NCBI GenBank assembly: GCA_037974965.1
Contig: JBBPFI010000003.1
Span: forward strand, 1,364,001-1,428,000
Length of the DNA: 64,000 bases
Source: Dacryopinax spathularia
Taxonomy: Eukaryota > Basidiomycota > Dacrymycetes > Dacrymycetales > Dacrymycetaceae
Reading direction: 5' to 3'
Shown: piece after piece, positions 2,057 to 31,979 of the stretch
How the letters are laid out: each line of letters starts with the position of its first letter
Position numbering within the stretch: the first letter of the stretch is position 1
Translations under genes and position numbers: made by a program
The notes under the pieces: model-generated
What the model was told of the DNA's origin: nothing
Databases searched by the model: none
Seen by the model: the letters and a program-made list of their open reading frames with translations, nothing else

Positions 2057-2757
2057 ATGTCAGCCTCGGTCACTTCAGAACACAGGCGACATCTCACTGT
2101 ACCCGCCTCGCGTACCCGCCCACTATCGCGCACACCGAGCGGGAGGGTCAGCCCAGCATCCCCCGCACAGAACGGCCCGTCGTTAGGCCGGGCTCCTTCG
2201 CCGCCGTCCAGCCTATCGCCATCCAATGCCCTTGAGTCGTTGTTGAACGACACAGAACAACGTTGCGAACGGTTTGAGCATCGTATCGCCCGCCTGCAGG
2301 ATATCCTCGACCACGAATTTGAAGAATGGAGGTCGGCGCTCAGCAGCCGAGATAATGTCAACGACGAGTTAATGCGTCTATCAAACTCAGTGACCCAAAC
2401 AGCAACCCGAGATGTCCCTCAGACGCTCGCAAAGCTTAACGCTGAAGCCAGGGAGACTAAGGGAGTAGCCAAACAGCTGGACTCGATGGGCAGACGGGTC
2501 GTAGAGACGGAGCACAAGCTGAGAGAAGGTCGACGACGCATGGAGCGACTGGAAAAGGTACTCGCCGAGCAGGAGACCGGCAGGGGTTGGCTTACATGGA
2601 CTAATTTCGGTGCGTTCTTCATTGCAAAGCTGTAAGCTTGCTCACACTCGCTACAGTCATTGGTGTGGGAGCGCTGTTTCTGGCCGTCGGGCTCGCTCTT
2701 ATCATGTTCTATTACGTCGCCTGGAGCCCTCGAACGGATCTCCCTGAACCAGCGTAA
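2057..2757 (+). CDS. tail-anchored coiled-coil protein, function unknown
   Basis: Two exons, 2057-2609 and 2657-2757, encode 217 residues. The N-terminal 60 residues are Ser/Pro/Arg-rich and probably disordered. Residues about 65-180 form a long charged helix with heptad spacing, from SLLNDTEQRCERFEHRIARL to MERLEKVLAEQETGRG. The second exon supplies one hydrophobic segment (VIGVGALFLAVGLALIMFYY) followed by a short polar tail of about 16 residues. This is the layout of tail-anchored membrane proteins such as SNAREs and tethers, but I recognise no SNARE layer or named family. Without the 47-bp intron the frame would stop just before the membrane segment, so the intron decides the localisation. 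The gene is divergent from the GH15 gene and convergent with COQ3 (44 bp between stops). Confidence 0.75.
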
Positions 2758-2801
2758 CGAACAGCGAGCTAAGGGACTGCGCACCAATTGGACGAATATG
2801 A

Positions 2802-3794: not shown

Positions 3795-4023
3795 CGAGAG
3801 TTGCACCAGCGTCGAGAAGTTGTCTCTGCTGGTTATCGCATGGACAGTATTTTATGTGTCCTGTCAGCGTGGAACCAAAGGCGCCGCGCCGCGTCACAGG
3901 GCACTCGACGGGGACCCATCAGCGCCTGTCTGTGCTCAACACCTCCTCCTCCTCGTCTGAGCCCACTCAGTCGCCTAGCACCTCGCCTCGCCGGCTGGCC
4001 ATCGTTCAGGTCGAACAACCTCA

Positions 4024-6257: not shown

Positions 6258-6350
6258 AGACAGAGTGACTGCGTTATTGCTCAGGACCACGGAATGTGAG
6301 GCGATGGCAAGGAGTTGAACGCTCTATTCTATGCCAAGATACCCTTACAA

Positions 6351-8153: not shown

Positions 8154-8568
8154 GGTGATGGAGCAAACAAGGAAAAAGGACAGGAGAACGATGAGGGCAG
8201 AGCGAGACCCTTCAACGAGCAGGAAATGCGTTCACGCTTCCCCTTCCAATGGCTTCTTCCACGGCAGGGCGGCACAACAAAGCGTGTTCCATCGCTCGGC
8301 TCGCTTACCCGTGTGTGAATATGTATGGCTATGGCGGTGGGCTGCCACAAAGTTTGCAAGGCGATGTCGCGGGGGGAAATCGGACTCATCCACTTGGAAG
8401 GCTAATACAGCTAAACTTGCAAAGTGGGACAGCACTATCGTGTACAACTCCAAGTGATTGCTGCACCTCCGAAACAGCACGACCATGTATATTGGCAGAC
8501 ATAGCATAGGCAACGTAGGACAAAATGGACGCAACACGCGCATACTCCCTCGGCAGCGAACCCCCGTC
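8154..8568. promoter_or_regulatory. intergenic: ERG4 promoter and RPS27A 3' flank
   Basis: 415 bp between the ERG4 start and the ubiquitin-RPS27A stop. Both genes read leftward, so this must hold the RPS27A 3' untranslated region and the ERG4 promoter. No credible coding frame or element was seen. Confidence 0.5.
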
Positions 8569-14487
<5,919 letters not shown>

Positions 14488-14805
14488 CGAAGGTGGAAAG
14501 GATTGGGAATGGGGAGATGATCATACCCTTACGCAGCAGGTTGCAGAGGAGAATGGACTCCGGGTCTGATATGGCATTAGCTAGACGGGCACTGTATTCT
14601 GCCTGATGTGTTGGCGCGCTTGTGAATATTATGCCGAGGAGTCAGTTCGCAACTGTCTTGGCGTTGTTTGCGCAGTAGATCGCACTTTTGGAGTGCCCCC
14701 GCACGAAATAAAGGTTGTATCAGTCCGAGAGTAGGGATTAGAGACGTAGCCTCTCTACAATATGAAGAATACAACAAGCCGAAGCACAAGAAGCAGAACG
14801 CCTAC
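14488..14805. other. convergent intergenic, UBP12 and heme lyase
   Basis: 318 bp between two convergent stops. It should contain both 3' untranslated regions and terminators. Nothing else seen. Confidence 0.5.
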
Positions 14806-15750
14806 TCAATGACGATCCCTCTCCTGGCGCTTCCAATCCTTCCAGGCATCCTCAGCGGCAGCAACAATACGCTCCTTGATGCTGCCCACGCTGTCCAGTG
14901 CCGGTCTCACATCAAGCGAGAATACCGGGCTGCCATCCGGCTCAGGCGGCGCGGAGTAGTAGTCGATCACATACCGCACTTCCTCGCCCGACCAAGGTCT
15001 CCGCACAATCCAGTCGTGCCTGTCAAACGGCGGCTCGGAGGCGAAGTGAGAGGGGAAAAAGTATGCGGCGAGCATATGCACGCGCGCTTTGGGTGAGAGC
15101 TGGCCAGGCTTGCCCATGAATCGTGCGAGCTCGATCTTATCCAGCTGGGCGTTCCTAAGCACAGGTAAGCATTTTAATAGTTGTCTCGTATAAGCAGTCC
15201 ATTTTGCAGGACGGAAAGATGCTCACGGGTTCCTCGCCTCCCATTTCAGTACTTCGCCCCACGCGGCCTCATTGAGGAAATTGTGGATTTCCACCATGCT
15301 CTCGACGCTCTCCTCAGGCGTCTCCCATCCCTTCCTCACCAAAGCATTGTAGAACTGCTGAGGGCTCGGGTACTCCCACCGGTTAGGTGACTCCACGCCT
15401 GGCTCTGGTGAGGGAGGTCGGGGGATGGAGGATACAGTCCGCTCAAGCGGGAGTGGGACGCGCTGATTTGGCGCAGGTGCTTGAGCGAGGGCGGGCATCT
15501 GGTTGAGTGGATTGAGCTGGTCGCCATGCACGACGGGACATTGTGCTTGTCCGGTAGATGGTATAGAAGGCGAGTGTGCAACAGGACACTGAGCAGGAGC
15601 AGAAGCAGGAGGAGGTTGTGGTGTTGCTGATGCATTGTGCATTGGGCAACCTGGAGGTGGTGAAGTTGCTGGTGTGCCCACAGGCGGATGACTTGCGGGC
15701 AGGTTTGGTTGAGGTTGAGATTGAGTTGGGAGAGATGTCGTCTGTCCCAT
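14806..15750 (-). CDS. CYC3: holocytochrome c synthase (cytochrome c heme lyase)
   Basis: Attaches heme covalently to apocytochrome c in the mitochondrial intermembrane space. Exons 15227-15750 and 14806-15154 give 290 residues. The N-terminus [10 protein letters not shown] looks myristoylation-like. It is followed by a Pro/Gln/Ala-rich region with three Cys-Pro heme-binding motifs (CPMHNA, CPVAHS, CPVVHG). The catalytic domain shows [55 protein letters not shown] and [20 protein letters not shown] with the conserved His of the family, ending in the basic [14 protein letters not shown]. The 72-bp intron is longer than the window norm. CYC3 versus CYT2 specificity cannot be told from sequence. 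Confidence 0.94.
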
Positions 15751-16049
15751 CGTTCGAATATGTGAGTGGGCTCTGAGAGAGCTGAGAGAGAGAGAGAGAG
15801 CAATGAGCGCCGGAGAGAGAGACTTCCGAAAGAATAATTTGGTGACAGAATCATCTGCACAGCCACAACGCAATAGCCGATCCGCAGTCAGCCGATACAG
15901 TAACCAAATGTCACACCTGACTGCCACCAACCTTCTCTCCGCGTATCTTCAACGCCTTCTGCTTTTCTTTGTAATTTCAGGCGGGAGAACCTGTGTCGGC
16001 GTTGGGGTATCGGAATAAATAGCAACTAGCACAGACACGCCCGGCCAAC

Positions 16050-17281
16050 ATGGGCAACGCTCTGTCCATCATGGCTGCCGTCGGAATGGGTGAGCCACCT
16101 CCTGGGAGCTCTCTAGTCTCACTTGTTGAACTCGCTGGCCACGCGAAGCGATCGGAGCGCCGGCTGTATATTGTATGCATATTCAACATCCATCATGTGC
16201 ACTGTTGAAGAGCTCTTCTAGTCGACCAAGCTTATAGCATGATTCGAAAAAAGTGATGTAGTATCTTCCCATCGAGTGGATCTGGCATGCTCATACTGCT
16301 CGCGCACAAGAAACGCAGCGGGCTTTTCACGAGATATTTGCGCAATACTTCTCATCGCCAATATAACTCGCTGCTTCTTCTGGATCGGAGACCGGTTCGA
16401 GATCGCCCTCCTTGTTCAGTCTCTCCTGATGATTCTGGCTCAGGTTCGTTCCTGCCCTTCCGCCTCCTACAACACCTAATCTGATACCGTGTTTGCGTTT
16501 GATCTGTGGCCTTGTAGCTTGGCCTACTCTATATCTGTATCCGCTTCCGCCCTCTTACAAGCCCGGAAGCCCTCGGCGAATCAGCGAGGCCGTTCAAATT
16601 CTGGCAATGGAAGAGTTACTGGACATACCTAGAATTCCTTGCCGGACTAATGTGAGCTTTTCGTCTCACAAACAGGCTGAGAATGCTGATGGGAATGAAG
16701 AATGCTGCTCACGTTCGCAGTGCTAATTCTCGGAAGATATCAGTGGTTCGTTTCCGCCCTGGGTTACTTCGCCCTGTGGGTTTCCTTCCTCGGTGTATTC
16801 GTCCAGGCGCATTGACCAGACGCCAGAGGGTTAGAAAGCACGCTTCCACTCCCGCAGATGTACAGGTCGGTTAACCCAACCCACTTGCCCACATAACAGC
16901 ATCTCACAACGATTCAGCAATTTTGTCAACAAGACCTTGTATGGCTTTCGGATAACGACACTAGGCGGATGGTTGATTGGAGACACATTCAAGTGTGTGC
17001 TGCGAACCCTTTGCATGCCTTATTACTGAACGGCTGGATCAGAGTGACATATTTTTTCCTCAAGAACGCCCCAATACAGTTCAAAATCTTTGCCATTTTC
17101 TCGCTCTGCATAGACCTCAGTGCGCACACTCCGTCAGCACTTTACGTTGACCAACTGACGGGGGACGGACGCAGTAATTGCGTCCCAACGCGTATTCTAT
17201 GGCGCTGAGCCGAATCTGCCGGAAGACGACCTAGGCGAGTTGGAGGAGGCGCTCGCCCTTGCCGAGCCCGACGAGACATAA
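16050..17281 (+). CDS. PQ-loop repeat membrane protein (ANY1/CFS1, SLC66A2 type)
   Basis: Multi-pass membrane protein with two PQ-loop repeats. Ten short exons: 16050-16089, 16149-16172, 16222-16252, 16311-16443, 16518-16651, 16701-16775, 16827-16865, 16918-16992, 17043-17119, 17175-17281, total 244 residues. The spliced frame reads VGMAIGAPAVYFDQAYSMIR, GFSRDICAILLIANITRCFF, LLVQSLLMILAQLGLLYICI, FKFWQWKSYWTYLEFLAGL, TLPLPQMYSNFVNKTLYGFR and TYFFLKNAPIQFKIFAIFSL, a close match to fungal proteins in the ANY1/Cfs1 group linked to endosomal phospholipid asymmetry. The tail is acidic. Three introns (ending 16148, 16310, 16700) must use AAG acceptors to keep frame and homology. Its 299-bp promoter is shared with the heme lyase gene. 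Confidence 0.88.
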
Positions 17282-19178
17282 ATGTGGCGCTTCGGACGGC
17301 CTAATGACACGCATGTATAATACCTTCAGGCATAATTCCATCCGCATCACTACGCATCTGCGAACGAAATGACAACACCGGACAAGATGTCCAGTTCAAT
17401 AAAAACGTCTAACCCGTAGAGAAAGAGGGGAGGATTGACGATCTGCTATGAACCGGTTCGTGGTTCGTTCTTGCCACGTAGTTTAGCCCCGATGCGGTGG
17501 AAGGGTTGACGCAAAGGTGCAGATAAGCATGGCGTTGGTTGGGAGAGGAAGCAAATGCACAACGCTGACGGACCCCACATCGCTGTTCTCCACAGCATGC
17601 ACCGGCGGGCGACATTGATAAAGCACGAGGGTCACGAAGTCGCTGATCACAGGCAGGCTCTCGTTGAATATGAGATCGGCAGACGTGGACGAGCGTCGTA
17701 ACGAAGCTGGGATGTCGGTCGATTGAAACCCATGTGCGGCGAAGTCAACTCAACCAGTGGGGCCGACCCCGCGAAAGAGGTATACGTGACGCAGCAGACC
17801 CATATCATTTCTATGCGACGCTGACCGCACGCATATACCTGACAAAGACTGTCAGACCGGGCGCAGTGAAGACGAGGTGGAAGAAGAGGCGAAGTCAGGG
17901 AACCATGTTTCGACAGCGAGCGTGCAAGCACGTCTTCGGCCGGCACTTCCTAATTGCATTTGGTTGATGTTCATCCTTGGATGGAAGCTAGAAAGAATAT
18001 AGAGGGCAGGGACACGTACCCGTTCATATGCGCCGGAACCGCCTGCCGCATACATGCTCACACGCCACCAGCAACGAGAACAGCCTTAGCTAGCAACATG
18101 CTGCTCAGCGAGGTCCATGAACGAAACATGTACGAGGTCGTGTCAGTGAAGACAAGAGTTGTCGCGACAGAGACACGCGAAAGGAATGCTCGTTGTGCCC
18201 AAAAAAATCAGCTTGAACATCCCTCAGCTTCCGTCTGATACCGCACGGAGGCATTTCTGCCTCTAGGCCAAAACCTCGTCGGTTCCGGCAGATCGTCATC
18301 TCCGGATCTCTGCAGGTAACAAGAACTTGGGAAATTCCGGCCATAGCCGTATCGAGCTATGGGCATGCGCTGGCTTTGTCAAGCTCGCAAGCAACATTCT
18401 TGTCGCGAGCCTCGGAGGACGCCAGAGCGCGGCAAACTGGGGACTGGCCACGGGAGCTGAGGGGTCTCTTACTGTCGGTCAAAGCATTCCTGTGGAAAAG
18501 TCGACGCGTATACGCGCGCTGCAGGGGCTCATATGTTGAGGCATCACGCGGACATGCATCGCCCGTGGAATGGATGCCGGCGGCGGGGTGCACCAACATA
18601 TATGCACCTGCTGGACGCATACATGCGTCGATCTGAGCACGTATATCTGCTTTGAACCGGGGGATGGACCAGAGGGAGTGTCGACGCTGCTTGACGGCCT
18701 CTCAGGCTCGTAGAGCGCTGTCGATGACCCCTCTGGTCTTGCTTGCGGCTCCGAGTTGGTCTGACATACCACCGGCGATCGCGTTCGCAGGTTCATAACC
18801 CGCTATAGGCAATTGCTGATTGTCCCCTATTCTCATCGTATGCCAGTACCGGGTTACTGGATACGTTGCTCGAATTATAGCAAAGGGAGGGGAGGGCGGC
18901 GTTCGAGAAGGAAGTGGGAGTAGGAGCGTGAGGAGAGATGCGCGCCAACTTTCAATACGGCAGATGGAGGAGGGTGAGAGGGTGACTTATGCCACATGGA
19001 GCCTCGAAAAATGGAATATCGAATCGACTGGACAAGATCGTTTGTACGATATGGAGGCTTGTTGTGCGGTATGCAAGTTTTGCATCACTTCAGCTCACGG
19101 TAAGCATGCAAAGTGGACCGATTTTTCCCGCACGATGTTGAATAAGTCGTGTATGGCCGCTCGTTGTTGAGCAGCAAA

Positions 19179-19196
19179 GCCCGCTACGTGGCGGGC
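19179..19196. repeat. GC-rich hairpin near left edge of AT-rich block
   Basis: Perfect 6-bp stem GCCCGC/GCGGGC around a TACGTG loop. Helitron 3' ends carry a short hairpin near the terminus, but no CTRR end lies at the usual distance here on either strand, so the link to the element is only suggestive. Confidence 0.3.
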
Positions 19197-19237
19197 GGGA
19201 GCAAAGGGCGTTGGCGATGGCAAACTCCGCGTCGACC

Positions 19238-19276
19238 ACGCACCACCACCACCAACACCACCACCAACACCACCGC
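19238..19276. repeat. CAC-rich simple repeat
   Basis: Imperfect tandem CACCACCACCAA-type units followed by a GCC/GTC-rich stretch. Low-complexity DNA lying about 75 bp outside the left motif array. Confidence 0.7.
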
Positions 19277-19350
19277 AGCTGCCACCGCCGTCGCCGTCTC
19301 CTGCCCTGCCGTCGCTGCCCTCCACGTCGCTCTCGCTGTTTTTTTGGTCC

Positions 19351-19491
19351 GTGGGCACTGTCTATCGCGTCGGGACCCCTTTTTTTGCGTGGGAATTCGT
19401 ACTGCTCCATTTTGGGGGTGTTCACGCCACGGGCTCTGCCTGAGCGTTGTGCATCAGATTGGAACGGGCTCTGCCTGACCGGTCTTGCCTG
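19351..19491 (+). promoter_or_regulatory. left array of shared 14-bp motif, upstream of the oxygenase gene
   Basis: Four related copies read along the plus strand: GGGCACTGTCT at 19353, CACGGGCTCTGCCTG at 19428, AACGGGCTCTGCCTG at 19463 and ACCGGTCTTGCCTG at 19478. The last copy ends 33 nt before the ATG at 19525. The same motif, in the same orientation relative to its gene, precedes the Rep-helicase with the same 33-nt gap. Either co-regulating promoter elements or subterminal transposase-binding repeats. Confidence 0.6.
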
Positions 19492-19524
19492 ATTTGGACA
19501 GGGGATTGCTATATTTGGTGGAGA

Positions 19525-21141
19525 ATGTCGACATCAGCAGAGGAGGTTTTGGGGACCAAAAATGGGGGTTTAGGGGCGGCGAAGGATTTAGGGGTTGGGG
19601 AGGAGGATTTTGGGGTCGCGAACGATGATTTAGGGGTTGCAAAGGGGAGTTTAGGGGTTTCGAAGGGAGATAAGGAGCGTGAGGTAAGCTCTTATATGCC
19701 AACTTATTTATGATGTATTTTGACGGGAACCACAGAAAAAGGCTAAGAGGAATGCAGCACGGAGGGAGCGACGAAATCGGGCAGAACTGGTGGCTTTGAA
19801 GGAGGAAGCGGAACTTGCCGATGCTGCTGCAAAAGCACATCGTGAAGCTGAGCAGCAGCGATCTGCGATCTGGTCGAATGCCTTTTCGATATTGCTGGGT
19901 GTCGCTGCACACGAGATTCATATCCATCGAGTGACACGAAAAGACCAACTTTTTGGCGATTTACAACGACTCGAAACACTTCGTGCATCCACCATTTCTC
20001 GAGACGACCCATATTTTCCAACTTCCGATTTTACATGGTTGCACGAGCCTGGATACCATTTGGGTCTTGAGGATGAGATACCTGTATTTGCGGTGCGGAT
20101 CCGTCCATGGTCTACCATGCCACCTGCGGAAGCGGCTACGATTTGTGATGTGCTTCAGAGCATAACCGATTGGCACACTTTGGCCACGAAAATCTCAAAA
20201 AATGGGGCCCAACTCGGAACAGCTCGTGCTCGCAGCAATGCAGCTCTGAGATCTGGACAAGAAATGGCGATGACGGACAAGGGGCTTATGCAGGCTGGTG
20301 GAGGGAAGATGACAGCGCTGCAATGGACGCAGAGTCAGGAACCTGGGAAAACCTTGTCCATCTCCGCTCCTAAGGGTCAGACTCACCCTGATGTGTATGT
20401 TGCCATTATCGTGCAGTTAATGGGCTTCTGACTTAATATTATCCTTAGGTACGAAAGGGTCATTGAGCGGCGTGATGTGATAGAGGAATACTATCGCAGT
20501 CGTCTTTCCCTGCTGCTTCCTTCAGTTGGTGCCAGGTTAATGACAGAAGCCATCGTGTATGTTATTCCTTTTTATCCCCTTTTCATTTACTTATATTGAT
20601 ACAGACATCATGTTCCTTCTTTTGCGGCAACAATCAAAGACCTTAAATCCTCTCACTTACCTTTTGCCAACTCCCTTACCATCACCGATGACGATTTCAC
20701 AAACTATCTGCATTGTGATCAAGATCACGTACCTATCGCCTTTGGCATGTGGTTCATGGCACGAAAGGAGGGGAGAAAATACAAGGTGACACCTGAGCTA
20801 TCGCATGAGCTGGTTAAAGGTGGAGAGTTTATCTGGGGGCATTTCGGAGTTGGAGTGGACTTTTCTAAGTGAGTGTCTAATATACATACTACAGTCCTAC
20901 TGCTAATACTCATGTTAGATGTGACGGAGTTGTGGAGATCTTCTGGAGAGCCAAAGAAGATGCTCATGCAACTCTGCAAAGCATTAGCCCCGGTCATGCA
21001 ACTCGATTCGGCACGTCGATCCAAGTGACAAAGAAAGCTGCTCAGGCCATGCAAAATGTGGAAAAAAGGGGAGATAGCAGCAGAGTTGTGAACACAAATG
21101 ACAGGTATGAGAACTTATATAAGCGTCCTCGGTTCAAATAG
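19525..21141 (+). CDS. probable TET/JBP-like 2-oxoglutarate/Fe(II) oxygenase (block gene A)
   Basis: Five exons: 19525-19683, 19736-20394, 20449-20556, 20605-20868, 20919-21141, giving 470 residues. Exon 1 codes four imperfect repeats around DLGVA/FGVA. A basic/charged helix follows (KKAKRNAARRERRNRAEL). The C-terminal third shows the layout of a double-stranded beta-helix oxygenase: HxD at 345-347 in NYLHCDQDHVPIAFGMWF, GGEFIWGHFGVGVDFS, then DGVVEIFWRAKEDAHATL with His 413 and a downstream Arg 426 in TRFGTS. Fungal TET/JBP families linked to DNA transposons share this pattern, but the assignment is inference from motifs, not a search result. A final alternative splice (donor after 21103) would change only the last few residues. 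Composition is AT-richer than host genes. Confidence 0.6.
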
Positions 21142-21221
21142 ACCTAGATTTAATGTTACTTACCTCTAAGTGGATATTATGCGAGGCTGAATTTTGGGTC
21201 CGGTGCTACTTGAATATGCCT

Positions 21222-21230
21222 GCACTGCCT
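21222..21230 (+). promoter_or_regulatory. short form of the block motif upstream of gene B
   Basis: GCACTGCCT, identical to the core of the copy at 31259-31273, lies 72 nt before the ATG at 21303. Single short match, so weak alone. Confidence 0.3.
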
Positions 21231-21302
21231 CTTATCGGCAGATACATGCTCGAACCCTCAACGTCCTCTCTGCCAATATCTCACCATACTACTTGCTTGG
21301 CT

Positions 21303-22565
21303 ATGGCTACCACAAAGATGCACTCCTCTGTGCTGCACTTGTCGGAAGAAGCTCAAGATATCATTTTCTCAGCATGCACATATGGTAGCCTAACTCGGCT
21401 TGGTGCGACTTGTACTTCTATGCGAAGAAATGTTGGCAGCTACCTCCAGCGACGGCTAGCACCTGAGCATTTGCTTACAATGCTCTTCCGTCTCCATCCC
21501 ACCCAAGATGCTCACATTGCAAACTTGCTGCAGCATTTCATCATTCATCAGCATGCTGTGATCATTGGGAGCTCAGTAACAAACCTTGTTCGCAGTCGCT
21601 TACATGATCCAGCAACCTCATTCACGTCTGGCAAGCCCTTAACATTTCGCTTATGGGTTAGAGGTGGAGATGGTACCGAGGCAGATGAGTTATTGAAGCA
21701 TGCTGGCTTTGTACGGTACGTTTATTCTAATCAGAGCTGGTATCTCTAATAACTGTGATGCAGTACAACAGACGTCAAAGAATCAAGAATGCAATGGAAG
21801 ATGCAGCGGTATCACAAAGCCGGCGTAGTCACGTTGGATGGTGTGGCCGAGTACTCCGACTGCTGGCTTGCATTGCCAAGCCAAGGTCACACAGCATGGA
21901 CAGCGCTCATCAAAGATGAGATGGACATGAAAATCCATGAACATTGCTGTGTGTTTTGATCTATGCCACGATAACCCATCGCATTGACATTATTAACCAG
22001 TTTGCGATTACATCATACTATGCCGATTTGGGGTTGTCATCTGTTACCCTCATGAAGCTTGGCATCATGAGCTTGATCGACCATGTCCCTCAATTCCAGC
22101 ATCTTATAGTAGTGGCCCTATCCGCATGTCCTACCTAGTACGCTGGCCTGGTAACCCCATGGAGCGCCATTGGGGTATTGGAGAAGAATTCGAGGGATGC
22201 AATGCTGTGCGTTTACGCTGGCCAGCAGATGTCTATTGTGCAACTGTGGCATGGCGGGAATCCGGTATGTTACAAACATATCAAGATTTATTTACATAAA
22301 ACTGATAAGCAGACGATTAGGTGTATCTCGACCTCCTTGCAACTCCGACATGGCTTCAGCACTTAGCGGTTGTGCAAGAATACCATATAACACCAATATG
22401 GTGGAAGAGGCCTGGCTAAATACCGAGAATACTTTCTACAAGTCGCTTCTTGACGAGAAGAAAGCTCGCAAGTTTGGTGATAAGAACATGGCGATGGGTA
22501 TATACAATGGGGGAGCACTATGGTGCGATTTTCTGGATACGCAAGAGGGAGCTATTGATGTATAA
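21303..22565 (+). CDS. F-box-like protein of unknown function (block gene B)
   Basis: Four exons: 21303-21715, 21764-21948, 22001-22264, 22321-22565, total 368 residues, all junctions in phase. The N-terminus reads LHLSEEAQDIIFSACTYGSL and LGATCTSMRRNVGSYL, resembling an F-box helix set. The middle and C-terminal parts (AEYSDCWLALPSQG, PHEAWHHELDRPCPS, MSYLVRWPGNPMERHWGIG) are rich in Trp, His and Cys and match no family I can name. The second donor (TGCT|GTGTGT) was picked because only it keeps the next exon open. It follows gene A on the same strand by 160 bp and is convergent with gene C. The shared AT-rich composition ties it to the block. Confidence 0.6.
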
Positions 22566-22669
22566 TAGTTGATGCGATGGTGTGGGTGAACATCAAGGCA
22601 ACATCATATCAATTGAAGGGCCTAAATGTATATACAGATTTCAGACAAATCGTATCTATCTTCTGAAGC

Positions 22670-24111
22670 TTATTTTGGCTTTCGCCCCACCCTTGGCTTC
22701 TTATTCGACTGAGTGGTTGAGTTATGACCACGCTCACCGGTAGGGCTGGGTGGCATCACCTCTGTGAACTCGTCCTCACCCTCACTATCAAGAGTAAAGA
22801 TAGGCACACGAGTGGCACGGTCAGCTCGTGGAGTAGCTCGCGAGGAGGCTGGTGTGCTTGGCATGCTTGCACTAAGTTCCGGTTCCAGTGGGGAAGAATC
22901 CAGCTCGACAATGCTATCTGCAATAAGCTGGTATGTCTGTTGCAATCATTGCCTATCAGCGAGTGCATCGCTCTTAGTAACCAGCAAAAACATACATGCG
23001 AAGTGTCAATACACCAGCAAACCAAACGGCAGACTACAAGCACCAGCGTTCCTTGTCGCAGTATCGTTGCCACATCCCAAGGGGGAATGAGCTTTTTCGA
23101 TTTGTCGTACAAGGGGAGTTGTCGTACACGACTATAGAGCTGACGAAAATTTGGCCCATGATGATCGGGTAAACAGTTGAGATGATATGTTGCATCAAGA
23201 CCAGACCCAAGTGCTGTCCAATAGTTGTTAGCAGATAAGCCTATGTAAGTGATTGGCTTACGTGTGTAGATATCTGCATCACCAGAACCCTCTGACGTCT
23301 CTCTTGTGGATGCAGTACCATTCTCTGCGCCGTCAACAGATTCGCCCCCCCCTCGCTTACGGGCAGAACGCTGCAAACCAAGTCCCTTGATTGGCATAGA
23401 AGGGTTGGCAACGCCATTGACAACCTGAGTCAACCAATCAGACATGTTATGGCCAGCCAGCAAATGAAGCACGAACCTTATATATATTCTCTGTATGCAC
23501 TCGAATCACATTCCTCTCAGTGTAGAAAGGACGTCGCTCGATCTAGGTTCACTGTTGAGGTTTATGCCATACAAATAGGTAATAGACAGACTTACAGCTG
23601 GAGTACGCATAATCCCTGCCTCTCCACCTTCTGCCGCAAGGAATTCGTCTTGCAGAGTGACAAGCTGATCAAGATACTGCGTCTTCAGTGCTCCTTTTGC
23701 GTTTGTTGGTTGGTGTAGCGCAAAGCACCATTTGACGGAGGTTTTGTCTGTGATCTGCTCAATAAGGTTAGTACACGAACTATGCCCACAATACATGATG
23801 CCCGTATGGCTTACCTGTTCCATCATGTTCTTCTTCCCACGTGCACTCGTATTGGTACCTTCGGAGCTAGGCCCAATCTCTCCGAAGAGAACAAACCGCT
23901 TTTCTCCAAGTAGACCATCCGGACCAGACTCCATCCAGAAAATATTGCCGTTTTGGCGTTGCTCTCGCACCACATTGGACATACAGTCCTCAAAGGCAAG
24001 GGCGCTGGGACTTTCGTCAATTTTGCGAATCAAGCGGGCATAAACACCATCATCTTCATTTCGGTAGGCAAATTGGGGATCGTCAAAGCGGTGTGGAGTA
24101 TTATCAGCCAT
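22670..24111 (-). CDS. unknown 405-residue protein (block gene C)
   Basis: Five exons: 23815-24111, 23596-23754, 23477-23542, 22996-23424, 22670-22936. Each exon is a multiple of three, so every intron is phase 0. The spliced protein begins MADNTPHRFDDPQFAYRNED, includes SVKWCFALHQPTNAKGALKT, RRPFYTERNVIRVHTENIY, ANNYWTALGSGLDATYHLNC and IPPWDVATILRQGTLVLV, and ends in a disordered acidic then basic tail (SNKKPRVGRKPK). No catalytic motif is recognised. It resembles the broad class of conserved hypothetical proteins of mushroom-forming fungi. The intron 22937-22995 is needed to join GTLVLV...CWCID to TYQLIADSIVELD. Lies 293 bp downstream of the Rep-helicase stop on the same strand. Confidence 0.6.
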
Positions 24112-24129
24112 TTTTCAGAGGGTGTCGAG

Positions 24130-24137
24130 GGCAGAGC
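24130..24137 (-). promoter_or_regulatory. short form of the block motif upstream of gene C
   Basis: Reads GCTCTGCC on gene C's strand, the central core of the left-array copies, 18 nt before its ATG. Single short match, so weak alone. Confidence 0.3.
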
Positions 24138-24232
24138 TGTTGCCGTGACGAAGGGTGAGATATACAGACTTAAAAGATAAAGCGAGATTCATGGACCCTA
24201 CAAAATAGCCATGGGTCATATCATGGGGCGTG

Positions 24233-24352
24233 CCATGGAGCAAAAACATGGGTGCAGAAGAGCATATAGCAATACACAACACGTGAAATTATGCATGGAG
24301 CAAATCCATGGGTACAGAAGGGTACATAGCAATACATAACATGTGAAATTAT
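24233..24352. repeat. 60-bp tandem direct repeat, two copies
   Basis: Copy 1 is 24233-24292 and copy 2 is 24293-24352, with about 8 differences by eye. Each contains CATGGAGCAAA, a CATGGGT box, AGCAATACA and GTGAAATTAT. The surrounding 150 bp is also crowded with CATGG boxes. It lies between gene C's promoter and the Rep-helicase 3' end, so it may be a subterminal or regulatory repeat. Confidence 0.8.
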
Positions 24353-24385
24353 CTACATTTGAATGTAGAAATGCTGCATTCTAAT
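24353..24385 (+). other. hairpin followed by CTAA-T, Helitron-like 3' end signature
   Basis: CTACATTTGAATGTAG can fold as a 7-bp stem (with flanking T/A). Twelve nt later comes CTAA followed by T, which is the spacing and end (CTRR|T) of canonical Helitron 3' termini. It sits on the plus strand, opposite to the Rep-helicase, whose stop is only 20 bp away. May be chance. Confidence 0.35.
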
Positions 24386-24404
24386 TGGCAATTGGAGGCT
24401 CATT

Positions 24405-27400
24405 TCATGTTTGACGGCTTCGCTTAGGAAGACGTGATGTACCAGGAGGCGGTGTTAATTTCTCGATTTCCGCAGTTGTTTGGTTCCTTTTTCTTCTGCT
24501 TCTTTGGCGGATAGGCCCGTATATTGGCACGTGTGGAACAGCATCTGGAGTAGCATCATCTAAAGGCACTTGTTCGGCACGCGACTGATATTCTTCTAGT
24601 AATGCATAACTTTCCTGTGCATCTGTGCGATCAATCACTTGTGTTGGTGCAAGTGGCACATTATGATAGTTGCGTAATGCTTGTTTGGATTGCAGCTTTT
24701 GCGCATGAGTACCATGAGCAGCCAAAGTACATAAAAATAGCACTTCTAGGCGACGTATTTCCCGTCGCATGTCTTCAGAAGAGTGGCATTGAATGCGACG
24801 TGGTTGAAATTCACGAAGTATCAGCAACCCATCTAAAGTCCGAGCCCGTGAGACCATAACATAGGGTGGTTCAGTCCCTCGACAACTTTCAAGATCAACA
24901 ATAACATTATCCAAGCTTTCTCCTTGGGCCTTATGCGCTGTGATTGCGAATGCAGGCTGAAGAGGAAGCTGCTTACGGTGAATTGTCACAGACCGACCTG
25001 TATCAGGATGGCGGAGATCTACCTCAACATCATCAGATATAACGGCAGCATAGCCAGATGGAAGCATAGGCAATGACGTACCCTGTAATCCAGGGATCTC
25101 TACAATGCAGGATGTTGCATGGCGTGTGTCTGTACCTTCCACTTCGATGTAGCGGATCTGGCGAAGAATACCCTTACTGCCATTGACAACTCCTGCCTCT
25201 ACGTCAAAATTTGTTGAAATCATCACTGGCATACCAGGCACAAGAGGTACCAAACCCATACGCTGCTGTGTTTTTCCACTATGCAAGCGCTCAAGCATTG
25301 CAATTAAGACAGAATTTTCCACTGGCTTCCCTTTATATGTATCTACGCACTTATATGAATGGACCTCTTGACCAGTTTGAACTGCAAATGCAAGTGCCCC
25401 TGCACGGTTGAGAACATCCTTTGATAAGTTATCTGCAACAATCACTGGTGCCGTTTGCCATAAGGAATCAGTAAGCTCCACATCTGTACGTCCAAGAATA
25501 CGTGTATTCAACAGTTCATAGTCAGCCAATGTACATCGCCCTTGGCGCAACCGTGAAAGAAGCTCCACAAATGGTTGATTTGCATCGCCTGCCTGTCGAT
25601 ATATTTGATGCAGCAAAACCACCTTATTTACTGCAAGCCAAAGCATTTTCCCAAAGATTTCCTTTTGACCATATTGTGAAGCTACTTTACGTGGTGTAAG
25701 CTTTAGAGTAGCATATAGCGGCTTCTGCTGTACAGGAGGCAGCTGTGCAAAATCTCCTGCAAAAATCACACTTATTCCACCAAATGGAAGAGGACGTTCC
25801 TTTGCAATTCGCAAGGCTTCACTGACACGATACAAAAGCTCACATCCTAGCATAGAGACTTCATCAATAAACAGGTAATCAACACCAGCCCACATGGCAA
25901 TTAGCTCTTGTCGTGTTTTTCCTTGACCACCTTGTGATCCCCGTTTTTCATTCATTCTGAGTGCTGCATGAAGAGTCATTCCACCAATGTTCTTCGCAGC
26001 AAACCCTGTATAGGCTGCTAAACGTAATCGCCGCTGTTGCTCATGTTCCCGGAGAAAAGCTGAAATCGCTTGAATAACACGACTTTTTCCTGTCCCTGCT
26101 GGCCCTCCAATATACAGATACAGAGGCTCAGTCGTTGCCGGCTGCAAAGCATGTTCACAAACAAGACGAGCAGCCAGCCCCTGTTCTGCGTTTAATCCAA
26201 ACTGTTGAATAAGTTCATTGATTGTCAATGACGATTGTGGAGTTTGTATGGGAACACTGACTGGTAGTTGCATTGATGGCTGGGTGGGTTCTGTATGTAG
26301 CGGAACAATTGGCTCTAACGGTAAACCTGCTACCACTGAAGCAATATAAATATCCATGCTTAATGAGCCCGGATACACAGATGATGTGGTAAGGGTCGGG
26401 GCTACATTCCGAGCAGCATTAGCACGCCAAGCAGCACGATTTGCTTCATATGTCTTCTCCCATAATGCTTCTACCGTAAGATCTGCAGGAGTGATACATT
26501 TAACAGCATCATGTATTACACTGACACCATCCAGAAGGCTATTTCTAGGGCTAGTGCTATATAAACCTGCTTGCGTTGCTGCATGAAGGCATGATAATGC
26601 ATTCATATCCGAAAATGCAGATCGTTGCGAGCGTGCATTGGTTATTGCATTGATATGTGCAAGCAGTAGTGATTCATCGCCTTCGGTATCTGCATTAGGA
26701 TTGCTATCAATTGCAAGTTCAGGATCATAACTGTCATGAAGTTCTGAAGGAAGGATACCAGCTGCACGACGATGCAGGTACCGATCTCGAAAATGCTTAT
26801 CACGGCTATCTTTGCATTCATGAAATAGCTGCATATTGTCCATGATATTCCTAAAGCGAAGAGGACATGTTTGGCAGAAATGCTCAAAGGCATCAGACCA
26901 TTGCTCGCTTGCATCCCGTAAGTCAGCAGCACTTCGCCACGGCTTGAATAAAAGCAGCATGAGACGGCTGTATCGGGGACGCACTGGCTCTTGGTCCCTT
27001 CGTGGGAGGGATGGACCACATAAGACTGGGACACGTCGTTGGAGAATTGGCAAGATTTTTTGACGTTGAGAAGCATGCTCTGGATGACAAGCAAGCAAGT
27101 TGAAAATTCGATCTTGTTTTGAAAAGGGGTCATTCAACAAGCTCTCAACATCAGCAGGCGAAAGTATTGGAGCTTCTTCAGGAGCAGAAGGATCGGTGCT
27201 GGGCATATCACGACCATTAGCAGAGGTTTTTCCTTTACGTGGTTTGGGAACTTTTGTACACTGTGCAGCAAAGTCCCATAAAGCTAAATGCTCCAACAAA
27301 TGACTTCGATGCACATAGTCGTTGACCTGACTTCCTTTCATCACAAGCTCACCATCATCCAAAACCTGAACACCAACAGTATCGGTCGAACCCATTTGGT

Positions 27401-30400
27401 CTGGCTGTATTAGGATATCTTCTTCCTGCATGTCGAATTCAGTGTTCAACGGTAACTCAGGTCCATCATGAGCATCTGAGTCTATACCACTAGAGTCCTC
27501 CAAATCTTGTTCAGCAACAGTGTTTGCGTCTGCATAGTTATTGGGATAGCACTCTGGGCTGGGCTGCTCCTTTTGAAGCCAAGACTCAAAACTCAGCCAA
27601 TACAAAGATTGATAACGATGACTCGTATAATGGTCTCCACCACCACAGAGAAAGGCCATAACTTGTGGGGCAGAAAGTTCCTGGCGAGCAACCATAGCAT
27701 ATGCACACCGTTGCAAAAGACGCTTTGCGATATCCACACGTGTACTAATAGTGGCAGGATTGGGACTCAAAATACTGCTTAGTCGTGTCACAGCCGCATC
27801 AAGAGCAGCAAACGCCACATGTGTCTTGAGTTGACTCTTTGTTATATAGTCAGTAATGTAAAACAGCACTGCTTTAGCTGACACACCAGATCCAATAAAC
27901 TTGATATCCATGTTACAACGCATCGCCTGGATGATTGTGGAGTTATAATTGTTTACAAGTCCATTCAAGCATCGCAAACGTAATTCTCCAGTCTCTGAAT
28001 CAACAGAACTGACGACCCTGATATTGGATGGATCAAGATTAAAGCGACATTCTTTTGGTTCAGGAGGCCCTCTCCAGTATTTGAAGCAGGTACTTGTATG
28101 CTCATGTATTTGGCAGCGAGAAACAAGCCGATGCATGTCTTTCTCCCGTTCCTTTATATAATCAGTACCAATTGTAGGAGATGGTCCGCGCAATGCACAA
28201 GGATGATAACCTTGACGTTGCACACCATACTCAATACCTGGATCAGGAGGAACATCTGTTGATATTACAGAATCTAACATGGTTAACAACCGTTCCTGGA
28301 AATTACTATCACATAGCTCTAGTATACGTGTTTTTATTTGATTTGGGTTCAGCGCACCTTCAACCCAAACAAGCATATGACAATGAAGAGTCCCACGACC
28401 TTGTGCTTCAACACATCCAAAATAACCTTTGAGAACTCCAAATACACCACCGACCAGATCCATGGTACCTGGTTTCCAGCATAGAATATGTTCGATGAAT
28501 GCTTTCATATATAAATCAAAGAACTTAGAAGCAACATATGGATTTTGAGCAACTTTCGATGCTTGTGCCATATAATTTGGGGGATGGAATGGTAAAAGGT
28601 TGTCGATATCAATTTCTTCACCAGTCAGCACACGTATGATTGGATTGTATACATCAGCTGGATTCAGGGTTATATAGAATGACGCAAGTCCTAAATCAAT
28701 CATCATGGCACGGAGCTGGTTTCGAAGCATAATCTGTGAAGCAGCAGATCCTGGTACTTGAGCTGTCACTGCGTTCACCTCCTTTAACAAACGTAGTACT
28801 TTCGCCTCATCAACGGTTGAGGCTGAGATTGGCAACCCAGAAGCCACACGTTGTGAAACAGCCTTCATTGCATCTAAGCTGATTGAAGAGAGATCAGCTG
28901 CTATCTTCTCAAATGCTTGTCGTCGTACTTTCACACTGATTTGAAGTAATGCTTTGCGACGCTGTAGGATGTTAAATACAATGAACAGAAAAGAATAATG
29001 TTCCTGAAATCTACGATCAGCTAATGCAAAAAGATGGGAGACATGACGCTGCATGGACAAAGCAGAGACACGAGAGCGGTCTTCAAGACCCCCGATACCA
29101 TAAGGGAATAACGTAGGGTAGAGCATAGGTAGCAAAGATGGATCAAAGAATTCATTCTGTGGCATGGGACCATGGGGTATTTGCAAAAAACCACCACCAC
29201 GCTCACGTAAGTGAAGTAATGCAGCTGTACGCAGTTCTGTGGAATTTGCATTAACATCAATATTGGTGACCACAACACTCTGAAAATGAGAAACGGTATC
29301 GTTTCGCAATGATTGCTCATTATCAATATCAGGACCGCTAGGAGTAAAGGAGTCATAACGTGAGGTAAGCACATCCGTCGCACTGTCTGGCAGCTGATGC
29401 TCAATATAACACGGTAGTACCTGCTCATTTTCAAGCTCATCGAGAACAGCATTGTTGATGCGAACATGAAAGTATAGGGGATTATTTGCCTTTAGCCATC
29501 TCAATGCATTCAAAACCTTTTCTTTGCGTACAATCAAGGGTTGTGCATGTTCACGAATCCATTCTGGCGTTGGTGGAGAGGCCCCAACAAAAATTACACA
29601 AATAGGGGTGATAACATCATCTATCGGCGGTGGCAATATCTCATCAAGAACTTCAGGCGACTGAGGAAACACAATGATATGGCCTTTAAGACCACGTTGA
29701 TCAGCAGGAGATCCACCTTTACCCTTCTCTCTTAGCTTGATGATCAAACTTTTTGCACGACAGCGAGCAATCATAGATTCTTCTACGATTGTAAGGTTTT
29801 GGAGCTCTGGAGGAACAGGCCCCAAATACAAGCCATTCGCAAGAGCTAGTGCAGGTGTACGGGCAGTCTCTGCAAAGTTAGTCAGGAACCTGTAACAATC
29901 TTTGCAGAGCGAAAGGGAAACTTGACCGGCTAAACTGTGATGAACACCTCGCAAGTCCACCATGACATCGTCAGGTAAGCCTGGAGCTGATGGAAACGGT
30001 GCAGTGGTATACCACTCATCCCTACATACAAGTAAATCGAGGTTTAGATCCTCTGCATGTTCCTCTAACAAGGTTGTTGCGGCAAACGAACCACTGCAAG
30101 ATGCACACACTGCTTCTGAGAGCGCTTGTGATGATGTGGCTGCATTGAAGTTCCGCAATAGACTTTCACAAAATTCAGTTGAGCACGGCACTCCGGGCCA
30201 CTGCTCCCGCAAATGATGGAGTCCTTGGCAATAATCCTCCCACAACCGATGCTCTTGTTTTTCCTCATGCAATGCTATTGCAGCCTTTTGATTTCGTTGC
30301 ATATACCTTCGCAACATGAAACGAAGTCGTTTTAAACTGTCGCTCTCATCATATTCAACTTGACAAAAATTCAATATCAGACATAACATGGGTCGGGCTG

Positions 30401-31190
30401 CAAGCTTTGCGAATGCGCCAAGAATGATATATTCAAGCTGATATATAAGCAATGCTTCTGGTTGAATCTGTGCGTCTTGCGCACATGCGTCAACAATTCG
30501 CAAGCAAGCAGAAGTGGTCTTGTGAATACATGTATCCCGAATAAAATGAGCGAGCAGCAGAAGAACACATTCAACATGGTCTCTTGGCATGGTGACATAG
30601 ATACCATGCAAGTTCGCTAGATATCCCAGCTGCAACTGATTCAAATGCCAAAGTTGCTTTGCGAGCTGCGCTGGTGAAAGCTGTTCAAGAGCAAACCGGG
30701 CATCAACTTCTTGCCGATAAGATGCAACAGCTTGCAAGCAGCGCTGTCGTGTTTGACGAGAAGTATGCCATCCCATAGCCTGACAAATTACCCGCAGTCG
30801 TGAAGTAGGAAGGATTTCGGGAGAGAGCAAGATCAGACTATTGATTAATTCTGATGCAAGCTGTTGTTGTGTACGCCCACTTGCCCACCAGCTACATATT
30901 GCCGACTTATGTTCCCCGCAGCATCCATATAGAAAGTGCTGGATCAACAACGCTCGAACATCATCCAAGGATGCGGTATCCAGGTAAGACACTGCGTGAA
31001 GGTCCAAGAGTTCTTGCACATCAGTAATAGAGAGATCAAAGATATCGCAATGTTCATTGCCGTAAGATGCAACAAGTGGTGCAATAAGACAAGGTAAAGC
31101 ATTGACGGTAACATTAATATCAGATCCCGCATGGGAGGGCATATTGGAAAACCGGTGCTTAATGGCAACACTTGTAGGCTTATGTAACAA
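24405..31190 (-). CDS. Helitron Rep-helicase (RepHel), uninterrupted
   Basis: One intronless frame of 2261 codons encoding the rolling-circle replication protein of Helitron DNA transposons. Seen in order: an N-terminal Cys-rich region (CASC, LVCRDEW, LCKDC, near residues 360-450); the Helitron N-terminal domain; the Rep HUH motif in GRGTLHCHMLVWVEG (His 936 and His 938); the paired-tyrosine motif YITDYITK (Tyr 1111, Tyr 1115); and a PIF1-like superfamily 1B helicase with Walker A GGPAGTGKS near 1695, Walker B DYLFIDEVSMLG near 1770, FAGDFAQLPPVQ, and the C-terminal AFAITAHKAQGESLDNVIVD with VMVSRARTLDGL. All catalytic residues expected for a working enzyme appear present. AT-rich relative to host genes. 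It reads leftward toward gene C. Confidence 0.95.
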   Translation of the reverse strand: MLHKPTSVAIKHRFSNMPSHAGSDINVTVNALPCLIAPLVASYGNEHCDIFDLSITDVQELLDLHAVSYLDTASLDDVRALLIQHFLYGCCGEHKSAICSWWASGRTQQQLASELINSLILLSPEILPTSRLRVICQAMGWHTSRQTRQRCLQAVASYRQEVDARFALEQLSPAQLAKQLWHLNQLQLGYLANLHGIYVTMPRDHVECVLLLLAHFIRDTCIHKTTSACLRIVDACAQDAQIQPEALLIYQLEYIILGAFAKLAARPMLCLILNFCQVEYDESDSLKRLRFMLRRYMQRNQKAAIALHEEKQEHRLWEDYCQGLHHLREQWPGVPCSTEFCESLLRNFNAATSSQALSEAVCASCSGSFAATTLLEEHAEDLNLDLLVCRDEWYTTAPFPSAPGLPDDVMVDLRGVHHSLAGQVSLSLCKDCYRFLTNFAETARTPALALANGLYLGPVPPELQNLTIVEESMIARCRAKSLIIKLREKGKGGSPADQRGLKGHIIVFPQSPEVLDEILPPPIDDVITPICVIFVGASPPTPEWIREHAQPLIVRKEKVLNALRWLKANNPLYFHVRINNAVLDELENEQVLPCYIEHQLPDSATDVLTSRYDSFTPSGPDIDNEQSLRNDTVSHFQSVVVTNIDVNANSTELRTAALLHLRERGGGFLQIPHGPMPQNEFFDPSLLPMLYPTLFPYGIGGLEDRSRVSALSMQRHVSHLFALADRRFQEHYSFLFIVFNILQRRKALLQISVKVRRQAFEKIAADLSSISLDAMKAVSQRVASGLPISASTVDEAKVLRLLKEVNAVTAQVPGSAASQIMLRNQLRAMMIDLGLASFYITLNPADVYNPIIRVLTGEEIDIDNLLPFHPPNYMAQASKVAQNPYVASKFFDLYMKAFIEHILCWKPGTMDLVGGVFGVLKGYFGCVEAQGRGTLHCHMLVWVEGALNPNQIKTRILELCDSNFQERLLTMLDSVISTDVPPDPGIEYGVQRQGYHPCALRGPSPTIGTDYIKEREKDMHRLVSRCQIHEHTSTCFKYWRGPPEPKECRFNLDPSNIRVVSSVDSETGELRLRCLNGLVNNYNSTIIQAMRCNMDIKFIGSGVSAKAVLFYITDYITKSQLKTHVAFAALDAAVTRLSSILSPNPATISTRVDIAKRLLQRCAYAMVARQELSAPQVMAFLCGGGDHYTSHRYQSLYWLSFESWLQKEQPSPECYPNNYADANTVAEQDLEDSSGIDSDAHDGPELPLNTEFDMQEEDILIQPDQMGSTDTVGVQVLDDGELVMKGSQVNDYVHRSHLLEHLALWDFAAQCTKVPKPRKGKTSANGRDMPSTDPSAPEEAPILSPADVESLLNDPFSKQDRIFNLLACHPEHASQRQKILPILQRRVPVLCGPSLPRRDQEPVRPRYSRLMLLLFKPWRSAADLRDASEQWSDAFEHFCQTCPLRFRNIMDNMQLFHECKDSRDKHFRDRYLHRRAAGILPSELHDSYDPELAIDSNPNADTEGDESLLLAHINAITNARSQRSAFSDMNALSCLHAATQAGLYSTSPRNSLLDGVSVIHDAVKCITPADLTVEALWEKTYEANRAAWRANAARNVAPTLTTSSVYPGSLSMDIYIASVVAGLPLEPIVPLHTEPTQPSMQLPVSVPIQTPQSSLTINELIQQFGLNAEQGLAARLVCEHALQPATTEPLYLYIGGPAGTGKSRVIQAISAFLREHEQQRRLRLAAYTGFAAKNIGGMTLHAALRMNEKRGSQGGQGKTRQELIAMWAGVDYLFIDEVSMLGCELLYRVSEALRIAKERPLPFGGISVIFAGDFAQLPPVQQKPLYATLKLTPRKVASQYGQKEIFGKMLWLAVNKVVLLHQIYRQAGDANQPFVELLSRLRQGRCTLADYELLNTRILGRTDVELTDSLWQTAPVIVADNLSKDVLNRAGALAFAVQTGQEVHSYKCVDTYKGKPVENSVLIAMLERLHSGKTQQRMGLVPLVPGMPVMISTNFDVEAGVVNGSKGILRQIRYIEVEGTDTRHATSCIVEIPGLQGTSLPMLPSGYAAVISDDVEVDLRHPDTGRSVTIHRKQLPLQPAFAITAHKAQGESLDNVIVDLESCRGTEPPYVMVSRARTLDGLLILREFQPRRIQCHSSEDMRREIRRLEVLFLCTLAAHGTHAQKLQSKQALRNYHNVPLAPTQVIDRTDAQESYALLEEYQSRAEQVPLDDATPDAVPHVPIYGPIRQRSRRKRNQTTAEIEKLTPPPGTSRLPKRSRQT

Positions 31191-31223
31191 TCACAATCGC
31201 AATTGTAGCCGCTATGATAACTT

Positions 31224-31356
31224 CAGACAGTGCCCGGTTGTTATCCTCACGAAAAAAGCCAGGCAGTGCCCGTACTCAGACGTGGAGCAAGTACAAAGGC
31301 AATGGCAGGCAACGCCCGTTCTATGCCCTCACACTACTGATCAGACCAAGCCCGTG
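31224..31356 (-). promoter_or_regulatory. right array of shared motif, upstream of RepHel
   Basis: Four copies, read on the RepHel strand: CCGGGCACTGTCTG (31224-31237), ACGGGCACTGCCTGG (31259-31273), AACGGGCGTTGCCTG (31306-31320), CACGGGCTTGGTCTG (31342-31356). The nearest copy ends 33 nt before the RepHel ATG, matching the spacing at the left array. Confidence 0.6.
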
Positions 31357-31601
31357 TCAGAGTGCGGTGAGAGAGAAACATATGGCAAGCGCAGAAAGAT
31401 AAAAGGATGAACCTTGTGGCTATGCAAGCCACATACTGTACAGGACTTGATTTTTATGGAAGCAAATATCGTGCCTGCAAACAACACAAACACGTCCTAA
31501 AGAGTGAAGAGGATACGCGTGGGAATTCAAGGTCACGAGGAAAAGGGTCAGAAATTCATGCCGAACGGAAGCAAAGCACGGCATCTGGCCGTTTCATAAG
31601 A

Positions 31602-31648
31602 GGTCTTGAAAAGACCCACCCCATAGAACCCAGCTACTTAAACGTAGC
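31602..31648. repeat. two short hairpins at the composition boundary
   Basis: GGTCTT-GAA-AAGACC at 31602-31616 and GCTAC-TTAAAC-GTAGC at 31633-31648. They could mark an element end, but neither has a CTRR|T at the usual spacing. Confidence 0.3.
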
Positions 31649-31979
31649 GGGAAAACCAGGGGTTCCGAGTCGGCAAAGCTGCGAGCGGGGCGGAAGCGAA
31701 CGAGGGGGGCTTTGTTTCCCCGCGCGTTACCCCGCAACCCCGCCCCATGCCGAGGCGGCACAGCCGAGCCCTTCCTGTCTCGTCCCTGTCTGCTGGACCC
31801 GCACCGAGCCAGAGGGAGCGGTCCTATTGGCCAGCTCTTTTAGCGTGAGAAGACATGAGATGAACCCATTCTTGGACACGAGGCGGTGATTCCCCCGCAC
31901 CGGGCACCGCATTGTCAAACACCGTACACTAAACTACGGAACCTGACAGCGAACGGGTCGGGGTCTGGTGGGAGAAGAG

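Follow-up and report, generated by a model that had tools for sequence, protein, structure and literature searches.

A window of 64,000 nucleotides from the fungus Dacryopinax spathularia (contig JBBPFI010000003.1, positions 1,364,001 to 1,428,000 of the forward strand) carries an element of some 12.5 kb that is, very probably, a complete and apparently autonomous Helitron2-type transposon – this holds for its unity, its ends and its mode of working alike – which would have taken up a gene for a Tet-like oxygenase (gene A) together with further genes termed B and C. The element resides on contig C3 of a 29.2-Mb genome in 24 contigs, and the comparisons described below lead us to hold with high confidence that A, B, C and the Rep-helicase gene (RepHel) form one unit between Helitron ends that recur in this genome. 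The original prediction for this DNA had likewise proposed a single mobile unit, which the Helitron ends recurring in relatives support, but it had set the borders at 19351-31356, and the true element exceeds that block by about 200 bp leftward and about 300 bp rightward. Its features, counted from the first letter of the window, are as follows (the exon models of A, B and C were drawn by eye from sequence alone, with GT..AG introns and no RNA data; ATIR, asymmetric terminal inverted repeat).

19146-31653, minus strand: whole Helitron2-type element, about 12.5 kb, with its 5' end on the right and its 3' end on the left, as RepHel reads
19156-19175, minus strand: 3' hairpin with a 7-bp stem, on the tip side of the 3' ATIR and 10 nt short of 19146
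19179-19196, plus strand: hairpin containing the 3' ATIR, 6-bp stem
19180-19189, plus strand: 3' ATIR, inverse of the 5' 10-mer, set in from the 3' tip by 34 nt, or by as many as 40
19429-19477, plus strand: left array, a pair of ACGGGCNYTGYCTG copies with a spacing of 35 bp, lying 48-96 bp before the start codon of gene A
19525-21169, plus strand: gene A, predicted Tet-like 2-oxoglutarate (2OG)-Fe(II) oxygenase, 6 exons, 467 residues
21216-22565, plus strand: gene B region, two genes or one with uncertain splicing, no Pfam match
21216-22138, plus strand: B1 (two-gene option), 274 residues
22126-22565, plus strand: B2 (two-gene option), 127 residues
22670-24111, minus strand: gene C, 6 exons, 380 residues, stop-free, no Pfam match
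24405-31190, minus strand: RepHel, a single open frame of 2261 codons (2245 residues from the first methionine, at 31142)
31224-31355, minus strand: right array, four copies of ACGGGCNYTGYCTG, lying 82-213 bp before the start codon of RepHel
31540-31653, minus strand: 5'-terminal region common to the C3 and C6 relatives, by homology
31629-31651, minus strand: 5'-terminal hairpin with the 5' ATIR, 1-2 nt from the 5' tip, folding at -6.1 kcal/mol
31642-31651, minus strand: 5' ATIR, CCCGCTACGT, 10 bp

The likely engine of the element is RepHel, whose predicted full frame of 2261 codons is indeed unbroken on the minus strand and comes with the expected domains and motifs. Pfam profiles identify DUF6570, Helitron_like_N (E 1.3e-33) and PIF1 (E 3e-21), and the catalytic motifs are intact, with HCH as the HUH motif, YITDY as the YxxxY motif, and Walker motifs. 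By this combination of HUH Rep, YxxxY and PIF1-type helicase in one protein, the sequence places RepHel in the Helitron superfamily. It also matches the Helraiser chain 7lcc (E 4.4e-11), most strongly in the helicase part, and no Pfam match up to E 0.1 was found in it for an endonuclease domain, the hallmark of Helentrons. At least 20 further RepHel loci exist in the genome (37 matching stretches; 21 of 70 candidates scored), genome-wide profile and protein searches having scored best candidates only, which makes these and later counts lower bounds. The 20 loci that were aligned all have YxxxY, with HCH in 18 and HIH in two. Because the matching stretches at these loci are only 30-39% identical to it, the RepHel of the element is, judging from sequence, a distinct lineage, of which one full copy was found in the genome. 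A second Helitron family also came to light, at places on contigs C1 and C4 that are identical over about 15.7 kb, to the end of the fetched DNA; it starts with TTCCTGGGACC, has several open frames downstream of its RepHel and includes a piece matching Rep_fac-A_C (E 4.4e-5, below the cut-off).

The borders of the element were set by three degraded relatives in the same genome (on contigs C12, C3 and C6), which break off at about 19140-19146 on the left and about 31653 on the right, i.e. aligning copies did reveal common ends, as had been proposed. On the left, the relative at C12:1033652-1035161 (minus strand) starts at window position 19140 and covers, with gaps, the 3' end and then gene A to about 20777, its version of gene A (C12:1033620-1034462) having two stops in the part that matches exon 2. 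On the right, the C3 relative (C3:1787606-1787700) is 94% identical over 95 bp to the 5' end, the match ending at 31653, and the C6 relative (C6:740042-740134) is 71% identical over 103 query bases to the same end, the match ending at 31642. The region of the right array recurs in both, at C3:1785249-1785388 (75% identity to window 31295-31436) and C6:738821-738887 (78% to window 31302-31370), and the C3 and C6 array regions share 87.5% identity over 329 bp. The left tip is placed at 19146 but may lie as much as 6 bp beyond it, at 19140, and the right tip is known to within 1-2 nt. The C3 relative is itself seemingly interrupted by some 2 kb of inserted DNA (from about 1785490 to about 1787600) that, when read by eye, has the ends GGAGTAAATTC and GGAATTTACTCC and is flanked by an 8-bp duplication, AGGATTTT.

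The C12 relative is also what lends some colour to the idea that the block is a composite, in which a RepHel Helitron merely lies beside another mobile unit with a Tet-like gene, such as a Plavaka element. The C12 copy of gene A ends at window position ~20777 and a Plavaka transposase frame starts some 1.9 kb beyond (L038:323-1762, minus strand; PF18759, E 9.7e-63), and Plavaka elements with TET genes are described for two Agaricales species in the available part of PMC12730594. We nevertheless find a composite improbable, since the C12 copy opens in the order seen in the window, with the Helitron 3' tip, the ATIR and hairpins, then gene A, and since a matching 5' ATIR lies beyond RepHel in the window, at 31642. 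No Plavaka-like unit was seen in the window, though no family search for Plavaka was made there.

It is the anatomy of the ends that assigns the element to the Helitron2 type. The right border, read in the direction of RepHel, is T|TCCCGCTACGTTTAAGTAGCTGGG, and it can form a hairpin whose first arm holds CCCGCTACGT. The 64-kb window has a single occurrence of this 10-mer and a single one of its reverse complement, at the two ends of the element, and the 3' ATIR is also present, in a CpG-decayed form, in the C12 relative. As a control, overlapping 125-bp host stretches were searched on both strands for inverted matches of at least 10 bp to the 5' end, which occurred in eight of 4056. Each of the four terminal stretches was shuffled 200 times, and an equally good fold arose in 2, 4, 11 and 14 cases, the lowest number being that of the 5' hairpin. 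At the left border, the 3' tip is CATACACGACTTATTC and CTRR was not found. Helitron2 ends have an ATIR of 8-15 bp, which is separated from the 5' end by 0-2 bp and, in its other copy, from the 3' end by about 20-40 bp (PMC3627910; PMC5148889, as far as available). In line with Helitron2, the element has a 10-bp ATIR set in by 1-2 nt at the 5' tip and by 34-40 nt at the 3' tip; its 5' ATIR lies within a hairpin, and a further hairpin follows its 3' ATIR. Insertion sites of Helitron2 are T-rich and free of target duplication (TT for Helentrons, TTTT|T/C or TNAT|T for others), and insertion at T|T would agree with the sequences that flank the window, C3 and C12 copies, the exact end bases being uncertain. 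A canonical Helitron1 does not fit the lack of a 3' CTRR and the presence of the ATIR and 5' hairpin, and the canonical A-T junction that the original prediction had foreseen is not supported.

Several observations weigh against one mobile unit with these ends. The element is the single complete copy found in the genome, and both ends were never fixed together by a pair of full copies; no empty site was seen; and the coding sequence of B, C and RepHel was not found in the three relatives. Five of the six bases at 19140-19145, beyond the left tip at 19146, agree with the C12 copy, which makes that tip uncertain, and the two 3' hairpin stretches beat their shuffles only moderately (11 and 14 of 200).

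A different view of the borders comes from the motif arrays that had been thought to bound the block. These arrays are real and inverted: allowing one mismatch at most, ACGGGCNYTGYCTG occurs six times in the window, always near the two borders, when 0.48 occurrences are expected, and not one of 100 shuffles reached six. They could in principle be binding sites or ends of a cut-and-paste transposon, for which the borders at 19351 and 31356 would be correct, and an inverted motif near both borders is just what such a transposon would have. We rejected this reading as highly improbable, since the homology of the relatives runs past the arrays on both sides, the element extending beyond each, since a ACGGGCNYTGYCTG pair with the same 35-bp spacing recurs in direct orientation in a long terminal repeat (LTR)-like sequence on C4 and C5, and since the copies point the same way as the gene downstream of them (A on the plus strand, RepHel on the minus strand). 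Exact ACGGGCNYTGYCTG occurs 17 times in the genome, as against four times for the pattern read backwards. Four of these 17 sites are in the element, two in the C3 and C6 relatives, ten on C4 and C5, and one on C1, where no link to a repeat was seen. The eight sites on C4 make up four pairs with 35 bp between sites, and each of these has a partner pair 4990 bp off in the same orientation. Two of the four C4 places were read and are identical over 267 bp, after which they diverge, and one of two C5 places is 96.5% identical. The repeat, which looks like a long terminal repeat, is found with its ACGGGCNYTGYCTG pair at the following places.

C4:2101101-2101400: LTR-like repeat with a ACGGGCNYTGYCTG pair
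C4:2106091-2106390: LTR-like repeat with a ACGGGCNYTGYCTG pair
C5:1261801-1262000: LTR-like repeat with a ACGGGCNYTGYCTG pair, the second site mismatched

Because ACGGGCNYTGYCTG lies just upstream of gene A and RepHel, is oriented with these genes and recurs in an LTR-like repeat, we infer that it is probably a promoter element common to unrelated transposons.

The presence in the block of a TET/JBP-related oxygenase, as had been anticipated, is borne out by gene A. This gene reads through its six exons, with GT..AG introns and without a stop, and its product matches PF20515 (Tet-like 2OG-Fe(II) oxygenase superfamily; E 3.8e-38), with the metal-site residues HCD at 345-347 and H at 413, and TRFG from 425. 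Searches of the protein against Pfam gave no match to PF12851 (Tet_JBP), and against the PDB only three unrelated weak matches up to E 5, the presence in that copy of the database of CcTET, to which AG-type transposon TETs are closely related, being unchecked. With moderate confidence as to its class, the product would be a TET/JBP-related dioxygenase of the HxD kind (HCD), hence without the HxE hallmark of PE-type transposon TETs. In the genome, PF20515 is found in two places among the best candidates scored, gene A and the C12 relative. Elsewhere, Tet_JBP (PF12851) is matched weakly at four places (C8:998044-998289, C13:1016521-1016748, C8:499943-500158 and C8:761543-761758), free of stops and with E-values from 2.7e-7 to 8.1e-6, below the Pfam cut-off, which point to further TET/JBP-like genes that the genome may possess. 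The first exon of gene A contains, at window 19546-19668, degenerate repeats of about 21 bp that encode DLGV-like units.

What an enzyme of this kind might do for a transposon is best approached through the decay of the C12 copy. Compared with window 19958-20777, this copy differs at 140 aligned sites, 82 of which are C>T or G>A changes (43 and 39, respectively), and transitions have struck 36 of 68 CpG cytosines versus 46 of 314 other cytosines. Its CpG observed/expected ratio is accordingly low, 0.12 versus 0.88 in the matching window stretch, and the decay has no preference for TCG (C>T at 13 of 24 TCG, 11 of 18 ACG, 6 of 12 CCG and 6 of 14 GCG sites). Taken with at least three hydrophobin matches in the genome and the four weak Tet_JBP places, this lack of preference hints weakly at a basidiomycete of the mushroom type and not of the rust type. 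Because C12 loses its CpGs by C>T, as CpG methylation followed by deamination would leave them, copies of this Helitron family seem to have once been methylated, and it is on this mark that an enzyme of the TET type would act.

An anti-methylation role has been proposed for the TET genes of transposons in PMC12730594, which, in the part available, also states that their function is not experimentally validated. For gene A, we regard an anti-silencing role as about as likely as not. Two things count against it here: (i) carriage of gene A does not go with better CpG retention, because the CpG observed/expected ratio of the element, 0.72, is below that of all 20 other RepHel loci (0.79-1.38 in matched stretches), near which no match to PF20515 was shown among the best candidates, and (ii) a single copy is no sign of success for a protective gene A. 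The low CpG content would equally suit an oxygenase that travels as a passenger with B and C, of no benefit and with no role in DNA methylation, which is compatible with a Helitron unit. That B and C belong to no Pfam family, and that validation is wanting for TET transposons in general, fit such a passenger too. It is harder to reconcile with a gene A that is intact over six exons, metal-binding residues included, when the C12 copy has two stops, and we see the passenger as a real, if somewhat doubtful, possibility.

Taking the Helitron2-type transposon as the working model, we infer its mode of transposition from the observed anatomy, ends and intact frames. The HUH/YxxxY nuclease of RepHel would nick the 5' tip at T|TCCCGCTACG, the PIF1-type helicase would strip one strand over RepHel, C, B and A, and copying would stop at the left hairpin with its internal inverted repeat, all genes thereby moving jointly. 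Expression would be driven inward by both ACGGGCNYTGYCTG arrays, that of RepHel by the right one and that of gene A by the left one, and gene A, if active, would oxidise 5-methylcytosine on its own element, with less methylation silencing and less C-to-T decay as the presumed benefit. The functions suggested for the oxygenase, B and C are held with low confidence. A bolder proposal is that A with B and C makes up an anti-silencing set borne on a Helitron, that A and RepHel are governed by one motif also used in an LTR-like repeat, and that an HxD gene was independently taken up by a Helitron2 lineage outside the rusts; as a package, this seems to us unlikely.

The original prediction regarded the whole arrangement as undescribed, which does not hold for the oxygenase. 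Transposons bearing TET/JBP genes were published in December 2025, including Helitron1 (Puccinia graminis, Pezizales), Helitron2 (Agaricus bisporus), KDZ and Plavaka elements, and in that paper, as far as available, HxE is the hallmark of the PE type, whereas HxD is the motif of other types, PU and AG (PMC12730594). We regard the element as genuine and well preserved, and as belonging to a kind that was described only recently. Its closest counterpart is the TET+ Helitron2 of A. bisporus, likewise a fungal Helitron2 with a gene for a TET/JBP-related dioxygenase, although that gene is of the PE type with HxE, unlike gene A with its HxD (HCD) and PF20515 match. The TET+ Helitron1 elements of P. 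graminis (PU) and the Pezizales (PE) also combine rolling-circle transposition with a TET/JBP-related gene, and gene A shares its HxD with the PU and AG types, but they are Helitron1 and the ends here are those of Helitron2. KDZ and Plavaka elements with TET/JBP genes again join a transposon to a demethylation-type enzyme, but they use DDE transposases instead of an HUH/helicase protein (PMC12730594). An HxD, PF20515-type oxygenase in a Helitron2 thus appears to be a new combination, one not named in the available part of that paper.

As for the vehicle, the ATIR, the 5' hairpin that holds it, the 3' repeat upstream of a near-tip hairpin and the 5' T are all shared with Helitron2 and FoHeli elements (PMC3627910; PMC5148889). 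FoHelis are reported, in the parts of these papers available, to have an extra gene opposite to RepHel, whereas the element carries the oxygenase with two or three more genes besides. HELPO1 of Pleurotus ostreatus is similar in that between one and four captured genes come after RepHel, several of them without a known function, but its ends are T[C/G] and CTRR with AT insertion and, in contrast to the element, no TET-like gene is named for it in the available part of PMC4289320.

The interest of the element is twofold: (i) an intact, delimited Tet-like Helitron and a CpG-decayed relative in one genome make the question of TET shielding testable in a single organism, and (ii) if the type assignment is true, an HxD-type gene in a Helitron2 joins the combinations already described.

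The remaining genes are more enigmatic. Two accessory proteins had been predicted; C is one gene, as expected, and B is perhaps two, which gives two or three extra genes. No Pfam family was found for B1, B2 or C up to E 5. In NCBIfam, scanned with B1 and C, there was no match for B1 and only a chance-level one for C (SoxX, E 0.043), and a PDB search with C likewise gave only a chance-level match (E 1.2). Profile searches gave no support to an F-box in B or to an OB-fold in C, and both ideas were dropped; folding the first B exon from its sequence alone was uninformative (mean pLDDT 36.6). Genome searches recovered the exons of B and C themselves and a weak match at C2:576753 (E 0.37), with no second copy of either found at the DNA or protein level, and no relative was confirmed in viral contigs searched with C, RepHel and A.

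The contrast in composition between the block and its setting, an AT-rich run of genes (A and B rightward, C and RepHel leftward) between GC-richer flanks, was confirmed, the genes being four, perhaps five, and all AT-rich. The 11 one-kb bins that span 20 to 31 kb have a GC content of 0.42-0.48 and all other bins one of 0.51-0.64, and the value is 0.464 inside the delimited element versus 0.538 (1-18900) and 0.562 (32101-64000) in the flanks. Codon usage follows suit: GC at third codon positions is 0.34-0.46 in A, C and RepHel versus 0.53-0.78 in the seven other frames of the window that reach 350 codons or more, these being open frames of unverified gene status, two of which overlap on opposite strands. 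As regards RNA genes, Rfam at the gathering threshold gave no matches in the window and there were no tRNAs. Between gene C and RepHel, at window 24234-24352, a 59-bp unit is present twice, the two copies being 86% identical and starting 60 bp apart.

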